Source of the DNA: Erysipelotrichaceae bacterium
Lineage (GTDB): Bacteria; Bacillota_I; Bacilli_A; Erysipelotrichales; Erysipelotrichaceae
Length of the DNA stretch: 45,510 nucleotides
Direction of reading: 5' to 3'
Assembly: GCA_017397025.1 (NCBI GenBank)
Contig: JAFQKG010000178.1
Location: 1 to 45,510 of the forward strand
Shown: positions 15,079 through 26,189 of the stretch, piece by piece
How the letters are laid out: each line of letters starts with the position of its first letter
Numbering within the stretch: the first letter of the stretch is position 1
The notes under the pieces: model-generated
The model's database searches: none
What the model was told of the DNA's origin: nothing
Seen by the model: the letters and a program-made list of their open reading frames with translations, nothing else
Position numbers and translations under genes: made by a program

Positions 15079-16593
15079 CTAATTTAAAGGACTATAACCT
15101 GTTTGTTCGATAATGTATTGACCATCTTCCGAAAGCAGAAAATCTAGGACATTCTGTACATTGGGATGATCATTACCTTTGACAGTGATGCAGTAGAGCG
15201 AAGTAGTAATAGGATAAGTGCCATTTTGAATTGATTGATTAGAAGGATAAACGTCGTTTATTTTCAGCATTTTAACATTGTCTACTTCATTCAATCCTTC
15301 TAAAAAATAACGGAATGAATAACCGATTGCCCCTGCTTCATTTTCATATTCAGCTACTTTGGTAATAATACCCATCATGGCAGATTCCATTTCAAAAGTC
15401 ATTGGTTCTTTAAGAGAAATATCACCCATGAAGTGAACCATCATGGATTGGCTGCCAGAACGTTCAGGTCTTTGGAATGCAACTATCTTTTCATTCTTTC
15501 CACCGAGTTCTTTCCAATTCGTGATGGAACCATGATAAATAGAACGAATTTGATTCTCTGTTAAAGAATCAACAGGATTATCTTCTTCTACAAAGAAAAC
15601 AAAGGCTTCTTTCCCAATTGGTGTATAAACTAATTCAACGTTATGTTCTTTTGCATATTCTAATTGAGAAGCAGATGGCTTTGCACCAAAGAACATGTCT
15701 ACATCCCCGTTGACCAATCGTTCAAAACCAACAGCGGTATTATAGAAGGTAACAATGGTTCCATTTTCATTTGTACCATATTTAATATCTTCACTAGTGT
15801 TTTTAAATTTAAGTTCAATCTGATCAATATTTCGATAAATATTCTTAGCGACTGCAGCATATACTGGATAGCAGGCTTCAGCTCCATCAAGAATTGGCAT
15901 ATCTTTTGGGTTGTCTATAATCAATGAAGGCTCATGATCAAGCATTACTAGCTTATTGCTGTCACTATAGACAGTATAATCACTTAAATCTGTACTAGAA
16001 AATCCTCCCATATAAGAGAAGTCATGATTTTGATCTCTATATTTATAATTTGGAGAATTAAAATAAGTTAACAAACATATTCCAGCACAGCCAAGGCAAA
16101 CAAATGAAGATAAGCTTAATATCCATTCTTTTTTTATTAAAATGTATAGAGTAAAAGAGCAAAAAAGCATCGAGCCAATGACAATGATGGCATAATAGCT
16201 GCCATATAATAAAAGAAAAACCAAAAGAGGAAATAAAGGAAAAATCAGCACAATAGGAAGAATGAGGGTACTTCCTAATAAAGAGGCTTTTTCAACAAAG
16301 AAAACAATACTAAATAGTATAAAAACAAGAGCAAGATATCCTGCTTTCAGCTTATTGTAGATAGGATTGAAACGTTTTCTTTTGCTGAACCATACAGAGT
16401 AGACCAAATCTGCAAGAGCACCAGAAACACCAAAATAGATAAGTGATAGAGTCATATTATAAGGAATTGATATCACTGAATCAATCATAGGCAAGATAAA
16501 TAACATCATTGCAAGGGATACAAGTCCTGCAAGAAAATATCCAAGAAACATGAAGAAGCATGTTGAGGCAATACCATATTGTTTATGTTCCAT
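15079..16593 (-). CDS. Membrane protein with C-terminal PstS-like substrate-binding domain
   Basis: A 504-aa protein. Residues about 1-180 hold five or six hydrophobic helices and no signal peptidase site. Residues about 190-500 look like a phosphate-type periplasmic binding domain: DMFFGAKPS, IGKEAFVFFV, the typical NQIRSIYHGSITNWKELGG, and RPERSGSQSMM (an anion-binding-like loop). The C-terminus ends LLSEDGQYIIEQTGYSPL, also PstS-like. There is no pstCAB or phoU nearby. The fusion suggests a membrane-anchored sensor or scavenging protein; ligand unknown. The start follows GGAGGAACACTT. Confidence 0.8.
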   Translation of the reverse strand: MEHKQYGIASTCFFMFLGYFLAGLVSLAMMLFILPMIDSVISIPYNMTLSLIYFGVSGALADLVYSVWFSKRKRFNPIYNKLKAGYLALVFILFSIVFFVEKASLLGSTLILPIVLIFPLFPLLVFLLLYGSYYAIIVIGSMLFCSFTLYILIKKEWILSLSSFVCLGCAGICLLTYFNSPNYKYRDQNHDFSYMGGFSSTDLSDYTVYSDSNKLVMLDHEPSLIIDNPKDMPILDGAEACYPVYAAVAKNIYRNIDQIELKFKNTSEDIKYGTNENGTIVTFYNTAVGFERLVNGDVDMFFGAKPSASQLEYAKEHNVELVYTPIGKEAFVFFVEEDNPVDSLTENQIRSIYHGSITNWKELGGKNEKIVAFQRPERSGSQSMMVHFMGDISLKEPMTFEMESAMMGIITKVAEYENEAGAIGYSFRYFLEGLNEVDNVKMLKINDVYPSNQSIQNGTYPITTSLYCITVKGNDHPNVQNVLDFLLSEDGQYIIEQTGYSPLN

Positions 16594-16661: not shown

Positions 16662-16693
16662 AGAAACCAAAAAGACAGCCATTTGGCTGTCTT
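16662..16693 (-). terminator. Strong terminator of the putative small RNA
   Basis: Perfect 9-bp stem AAGACAGCC (16672-16680) with GGCTGTCTT (16685-16693), loop of four, followed on the minus strand by TTTTTGGTTT. Confidence 0.85.
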
Positions 16694-16767
16694 GAATCTT
16701 TGTATATAAATCGATGAGTGCTTTCCTTAGCTCATGTACTTTCATTGCTGTGTACCTCATCGAAGAC
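16664..16767 (-). ncRNA. Putative small structured RNA, unknown class
   Basis: A self-contained unit: a near-consensus promoter (TTTACA 16797-16802, 17-bp spacer, TATATT 16774-16779), about 100 nt of transcript, and a strong terminator. The body contains a perfect 8-bp long-range stem (CTCATCGA plus-strand 16756-16763 with TCGATGAG 16711-16718) enclosing a smaller GTAC/GTAC hairpin (16736-16739, 16752-16755). It does not match any riboswitch or sRNA consensus I know. A 30-35 codon frame crosses it, but its stop lies beyond the terminator, so RNA function is favoured. This unit fills most of the 302-nt gap between flanking genes. Confidence 0.55.
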
Positions 16768-16773
16768 TCAGTT

Positions 16774-16802
16774 AATATATCATCTGAAAATCCTTTTGTA
16801 AA
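16774..16802 (-). promoter_or_regulatory. Promoter of the putative small RNA
   Basis: -35 TTTACA and -10 TATATT, each one base from consensus, with the optimal 17-bp spacer on the minus strand. Confidence 0.75.
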
Positions 16803-16825
16803 GCACTTTTTTAACAATTTTTACC

Positions 16826-16839
16826 TGTAATCGGTTACA
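16826..16839. promoter_or_regulatory. cre-like operator (CcpA/LacI family)
   Basis: TGTAATCGGTTACA fits the catabolite-responsive element consensus TGWNANCGNTNNCA at every fixed position and is an almost perfect inverted repeat. Its centre is about 65 nt upstream of the predicted small-RNA start, a position typical of CcpA activation. A different LacI-family protein could equally bind it. Confidence 0.55.
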
Positions 16840-25868: not shown

Positions 25869-25903
25869 AAAAAACAAAAACTCCCGTCCAATAAGGACGA
25901 GAG
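25869..25903 (-). terminator. T-box regulated terminator
   Basis: Stem of nine pairs (CTCCCGTCC 25881-25889 with GGACGAGAG 25895-25903, one G-U) and T5-G-T6 on the minus strand; it competes with the antiterminator that includes the T-box at 25912-25925. Confidence 0.9.
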
Positions 25904-26131
25904 TACTCTTTCGTGGTTCCACCTTAATTCATCAGTACCTCACGATACTGACCTCTTCGGGTACTAACATACCCTAGTTCTATAACGGGAACACCCGGTT
26001 CAACCTACTGTTTCTTCAGCGAACTGCTCCAAGAGGTGTTTCAATGCAGCCTTCACTTCCCTTTTCACCACCCAGGGACTCTCTACGCATCTTTCTGCAT
26101 CTACTCTTCTTTTCTTTGCATTTATATCAGC
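25869..26131 (-). ncRNA. T-box leader (tRNA-sensing riboswitch)
   Basis: On the minus strand AAGGTGGAACCACG (plus 25912-25925) is the T-box that pairs with the uncharged tRNA acceptor end, followed by a terminator. Stem I is recognisable: AGTAG facing TGAAACAC, closed above by ATGCAG/CTGCAT and below by AAGAG/CTCTT, with the apical GGTGGTGAAAA. The specifier lies in AAACAC (plus 26036-26041). It reads AAC (Asn), ACA (Thr) or CAC (His) depending on register; AAC followed by A is structurally attractive, but I cannot resolve it. Controls the ABC transporter operon. Confidence 0.93.
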
Positions 26132-26175: not shown

Positions 26176-26189
26176 TGAAAGCGATTACA
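26176..26189. promoter_or_regulatory. cre-like site upstream of the T-box promoter
   Basis: TGAAAGCGATTACA matches TGWNANCGNTNNCA at all fixed positions. It ends 10 bp upstream of the -35, centred near -51, and sits just past the stop of the hydrolase gene. Suggests CcpA input, probably activating by position. Confidence 0.5.

Follow-up and report, generated by a model that had tools for sequence, protein, structure and literature searches.

A 45,510-nucleotide (nt) stretch of DNA from an Erysipelotrichaceae bacterium (contig JAFQKG010000178.1, referred to here as the window) contains, at positions 16667-16767 of its minus strand, an inferred RNA gene of about 100 nt with its own promoter and intrinsic terminator. 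The reading that we favor, with some reservation, is that this unit is a conserved sibling small RNA (sRNA) gene that would be transcribed from a promoter of the tRNA/ribosomal class, tuned by carbon status and active in trans. Judged from its sequence, the unit is a free-standing cassette, consisting of an operator-like site, an A-rich tract, an extended -10 promoter, the RNA of about 100 nt and a terminator, and it is probably a previously undescribed small-RNA gene that makes a growth-linked regulatory RNA.

Copies, fold and genomic setting

The genome that contains the window, G000, is a metagenome-assembled genome (MAG) of a gut bacterium (2.0 Mb in 211 contigs), and it has a second copy of the unit (copy B; C119:22938-23043) that is 98% identical to the one in the window (copy A). 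Each of two sister species, G001 and G002, likewise has two copies, making a total of six copies in three genomes. The RNAs are 98, 99 and 100% identical between the two copies of one genome and 88-93% identical between species. The upstream and downstream flanks are mostly about 50-60% identical, which is close to unalignable, and the conserved block stops at the terminator. The presence of two highly similar copies in each of three genomes places the RNA among the multicopy, or sibling, sRNAs, and the simplest reading is that two retained copies have been homogenized within each genome by concerted evolution. A mobile element is disfavored because the two locations are common to the three species, even though the copies within a genome are nearly identical.

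A preliminary description of this DNA had reported a minus-strand promoter (TTTACA, 17 nt, TATATT), a perfect stem of 8 base pairs (bp) with an inner hairpin, and a strong terminator. The promoter is where it was placed and is of the extended -10 type as well, and the stem and terminator are also present as described. The second genomic copy, the class of the promoter and the upstream operator-like site are additions to that description. The parts of copy A, from upstream to downstream, are:

16826..16839, no strand assigned: candidate operator of the catabolite-responsive element (cre)/LacI type, TGTAACCGATTACA, an exact match to TGTAANCGNTTNCA with its center 30.5 bp upstream of the -35 element
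16803..16822, minus: A-rich upstream tract AAAAATTGTTAAAAAAGTGC, UP-element-like, common to tRNA and S10 promoters and kept in all five copies that contain the tract
16797..16802, minus: -35 element TTTACA, invariant in the copies that contain a -35
16774..16779, minus: TATATT of the extended -10 (TG-A-TATATT), with a 17-nt spacer to the -35
16767..16773, minus: discriminator AACTGAG, of the ...AGC type, as in tRNA promoters of G000
16756..16763, minus: 5' arm of the 8-bp closing stem, UCGAUGAG, invariant in six of six copies
16719..16755, minus: apical region with ACACAGYAAUGAAAGUA, where most between-species changes fall and where the hairpins are species-specific (from the alignment and individual folds)
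16711..16718, minus: 3' arm of the closing stem, CUCAUCGA, invariant in six of six copies and pairing with UCGAUGAG
16694..16710, minus: unpaired linker UUUAUAUACAAAGAUUC, invariant in six of six copies, a candidate interaction site
16669..16693, minus: intrinsic terminator AAGACAGCC-AAAT-GGCTGTCTT plus a U run, with an invariant stem and a variable loop

Transcription would start near 16767-16768. The whole RNA is predicted to fold more stably than any of 200 shuffled sequences (z = -3.85), and without the terminator it still gives z = -2.59, a stability that two of 200 shuffles reach. Among dinucleotide shuffles, the frequency of a perfect stem of 8 bp or more is 0.025. The terminator stem-loop (16693-16672) has nine pairs and a loop of four, followed by the U run. 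As for the inner hairpin, the GUAC/GUAC pairing is predicted in the G000 copies and is missing from the folds of the other two species, and so this part of the preliminary description holds for one species. In individual folds, five of the six copies leave most of the linker unpaired, and its central part is unpaired with high probability in every copy; in G000 copy A, the 3' end of the linker is predicted to be able to pair with the 5' leader. Apart from one change in the 5' leader, the copies differ mostly in the apical region and the loop of the terminator, and no change affects the stem arms, the linker or the terminator stem.

A covariance model built from the six copies, run on 273 genomes of the family with stricter filters that may lose weak matches, matched only G000, G001 and G002, with two copies in each. 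The unit had no match in phage and plasmid collections, and the linker pattern had none among viral contigs. A shared 22-nt core was found in four contigs of Erysipelotrichaceae MAGs from the caecum of water buffalo (RGIG7276) and the rectum of roe deer (RGIG4604), which appear to correspond to the G001 and G002 contigs that bear the copies. The gene pair thus appears, as far as we have searched, to be confined to one Erysipelotrichaceae genus.

At locus A an M20 amidohydrolase gene is followed by the unit and then by a PBP-domain gene in G000, a methyltransferase gene in G002 or a VanZ-like gene in G001, where the contig stops at the promoter and does not cover the upstream gene. The order at locus B is M20 peptidase, the unit, an HTH gene (not seen in G001), uvrA and hprK. 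The best matches of the upstream M20 genes at the two loci are different M20 subfamilies, and therefore we take the presence of an M20 gene at both loci as a coincidence.

Promoter class and a candidate upstream operator

In the A+T-rich window, the promoter hexamers are by themselves at chance level (six such sites compared with 6.4 expected), and therefore conservation and promoter class are needed to decide. A position matrix was built from seven tRNA promoters of G000, with the small-RNA promoter excluded. This matrix ranks the small-RNA promoter first of about 91,000 window positions with 25.0 bits; the next site scores 11.6 and the best score in 20 shuffles is 12.8. When each training promoter was left out in turn, the scores were between 3 and 38, and so the matrix is specific, not uniformly sensitive. 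When 0.72 Mb of G000 (1.44 million positions) were scanned, the high scorers outside the training set were a tRNA cluster, the S12, S10 and S4 operons and both small-RNA copies, together with one site near a contig end (L227) and the promoter of a long RNA that is described below. BLAST searches point in the same direction: outside the genus the unit matches tRNA and 16S rRNA promoters, and the promoter alone matches the S10 operon promoter within the genus.

The unit shares with the stable-RNA promoters of G000 (tRNA, rRNA and ribosomal protein) the A-rich upstream tract, TTGACA or TTTACA, the 17-nt spacer, TGn-TATnnT and the ..AGC discriminator. However, those promoters drive tRNA and ribosomal operons, and no cre-like site was found within 200 bp of any of the nine tRNA promoters examined. 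The 5' end of the small RNA, GAGCCTTCGATGAGG, is similar to the leader of the tRNA-Ile operon (L084, G000:C35), AAGCATTCGATGGAAG, and this similarity hints at an origin of the small RNA from the promoter and leader of a tRNA operon.

A cre-like palindrome is present upstream in all five copies that can be tested, with its center 30.5, 30.5, 31.5, 40.5 or 50.5 bp before the -35; in each of the five, a site within 51 bp of the -35 differs from TGWAANCGNTTWCA at no more than one position. Such sites occur at 0.029 per kb across the examined G000 sequence, and each genome has few TGTAANCGNTTNCA matches. At the sequence level, the small-RNA promoter thus has the cre site expected of a member of the CcpA regulon. 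The steps of about 10 bp in operator position suggest a dependence on helix face; for CcpA of Bacillus, a cre upstream of the -35 usually activates and does so with such a dependence (PMC3463425). The best CcpA candidate in G000 is a LacI-family protein of 326 residues, encoded at C90:14387-15364, that scores 256.8 bits against ccpA, far above its score for other LacI-type models, and the HPr kinase gene (hprK) is present near copy B.

Other cre-like sites were also observed. About 119 bp upstream of their -35, the S10 operon promoters of G000 (L064) and G002 (L065), which closely resemble the small-RNA promoter, have a conserved weaker cre-like sequence, AGATAGCGCTTTCA. In the window itself, a T-box leader (RF00230, 114.6 bits; 25890-26125, minus strand) is located upstream of an amino-acid ABC transporter operon, and a cre-like site is found just beyond it at 26176-26189.

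Relation to known RNAs and alternative explanations

The preliminary description had recognized no RNA consensus in the unit and had called it self-contained and of unknown class. This assignment is well supported by the six conserved copies that have their own promoter and terminator, the unconserved downstream gene and the lack of an Rfam family: a scan of the window at the gathering threshold and of two copies at E up to 10 gave no credible match. The models for 6S RNA (RF00013; about 160-200 nt) and signal recognition particle (SRP) RNA (RF00169) do not match the unit, and the true 6S and SRP RNAs of G000 are at C193:11358-11520 and C181:17465-17560, respectively. ARAGORN finds no tRNA cloverleaf in the window. 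A skipping-rope RNA (RF02924, 58.2 bits) is present beside a tRNA-Gln gene at L088:1330-1402 (G000:C7); compared by eye, it is unrelated in sequence to the small RNA.

Some known systems are similar in organization. SR1 of Bacillus subtilis is an intergenic sRNA with a vegetative promoter, an intrinsic terminator and a carbon link through CcpA and CcpN, and Hfq is dispensable for its regulation of kinA (PMC8464778). The small RNA has the same kind of intergenic unit and a putative link to carbon status; however, it is about 100 nt long, has two copies and no conserved peptide, its cre-like site is close upstream of a tRNA-class promoter, and no sequence relation to SR1 was found. The multicopy LhrC sRNAs of Listeria are induced by envelope stress through LisRK (PMC4132741). 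They and other sibling sRNAs resemble the unit in having several similar short copies per genome, but the promoters described here are of the tRNA/ribosomal class and the Rfam scan gave no match. The 6S RNA gene of lactic acid bacteria has a cre site at its promoter (PMC8414754) and so is also a noncoding RNA gene with this arrangement; in the small-RNA unit, however, the cre-like site is upstream of the -35 and does not overlap it, the length and fold differ, and the real 6S RNA is elsewhere in G000.

Among other explanations for the unit, the one that deserves most attention, although we consider it rather doubtful, is that the RNA is a decoy: an abundant RNA with an invariant linker would sequester an RNA-binding protein or a ribonuclease instead of pairing with mRNAs. 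The tRNA-class promoter and the two copies suggest a high dose, the linker and stem are invariant, and the search for base-pairing targets gave none above chance, which leaves room for a protein-binding role. However, that search took in only part of the genomes, and the sequence shows no protein-binding motif in repeated form, of the kind that CsrB-type RNAs have in their many GGA loops. It is improbable that the unit is a promoter and terminator left over from a tRNA operon and now decaying, expressed but functionless. The promoter and 5' leader do resemble those of the tRNA-Ile operon, as noted above, but the body of the RNA has been conserved while its flanks barely align, and two nearly identical copies have been kept within each of three species.

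Two further explanations are even less probable. In one, the RNA would be a riboswitch-like leader or attenuator of the PBP-domain gene (15079-16593), which is on the same strand about 80 bp beyond the terminator. However, the next gene varies between species and loci and so has no constant association with the unit, the PBP-domain gene is preceded by a separate promoter-like TTGTTT-17-TATGAT, and there is neither an Rfam riboswitch match nor conservation beyond the terminator. In the other, a frame of 30-35 codons beginning in the 5' stem or the apical region would encode a peptide, alone or in a dual-function RNA like SR1. In G000 copy A such a frame has 35 codons (MRYTAMKVHELRKALIDLYTKIQDSQMAVFLVSLE) and extends through the terminator, and GAGG precedes its second AUG. 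This frame overlaps the terminator, though, and both G002 copies stop after 10 codons, or after five from the second AUG; the changes include a single-base deletion. The RNA therefore lacks a conserved open reading frame, as expected of a trans-encoded sRNA, and its intergenic position with a promoter and intrinsic terminator, recognized by sequence, is that of an independent unit.

Several observations weigh against a carbon-tuned sibling sRNA that acts in trans. The trans-acting role proposed in the preliminary description is plausible, but a duplex-energy screen of three RNA segments against 306 orthologous gene starts gave no target better than shuffled controls, and a BLAST screen found no conserved antisense match; both covered partial genomes and had limited power. 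The search of relatives recovered a conserved stem and promoter. All six copies have an identical 8-bp stem and so offer no compensatory changes, a result that neither supports nor refutes the pairing. The covariance search did not find the small RNA in G003, which is assigned to the same genus. The helical phasing of the operator rests on only three distinct spacings. Finally, the 256.8 bits of the LacI-family protein are below the curated NCBI ccpA cut-off of 442, and therefore it may be another regulator.

A long repeat-built RNA and a possible growth-linked RNA set

The promoter matrix can also be used to find other stable RNAs; one example is a noncoding unit of about 1.95 kb located about 9 kb from copy B (G000:C119 ~14035-12070, minus strand; L155:12070-14035). 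It is purine-rich (A about 43%, G about 32%) and consists of a tRNA-class promoter, which the matrix scan detected, with a cre-like site at -50.5, about a dozen tandem repeats of about 143 nt and an intrinsic terminator at the end. G002 has a counterpart (L185:3740-5720, plus strand) that is 86% identical over 2,064 nt, as well as a short form of about 310 nt (L175:15900-15600, minus strand) with the 5' domain and the 3' end only. In a comparison of three sequences, eight of the 51 pairs predicted in the 5' domain show compensatory changes, with both partners altered and the pairing preserved. A search of 801 bases (the promoter and 5' part) gave no Rfam match at E up to 1, phages and plasmids had no match, and no viral contig had the 22-nt 3' core. 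The unit looks like a new large structured RNA.

Returning to the small RNA, a carbon-tuned sibling sRNA gene would work as follows. The RNA would be made in large amounts when cells grow fast, as the products of tRNA and ribosomal operons are. A LacI-family protein resembling CcpA and bound 30-51 bp before the -35, where binding usually activates in Bacillus, would additionally adjust the level of the RNA to carbon status. The closing stem and terminator would have a protective role and would also display the invariant linker and apical loop, so that partner RNAs or a protein could bind there and the RNA could act in trans. A considerably more tentative idea is that the genus runs a set of noncoding RNAs, the twin small RNAs and the repeat-built RNA of about 2 kb, from tRNA/rRNA-class promoters that have a CcpA-type site 30-51 bp upstream; the levels of dedicated regulatory or structural RNAs might then depend jointly on carbon status and ribosome production.

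A search of open full-text papers found no report of small RNAs with a northern blot in Erysipelotrichaceae, and the regulatory RNAs of the gut members of this family appear to be almost unstudied. A twin sRNA with a tRNA/ribosomal-class promoter and a cre-like site would, if true, link RNA regulation in a gut lineage directly to sugar supply and the rate of growth.
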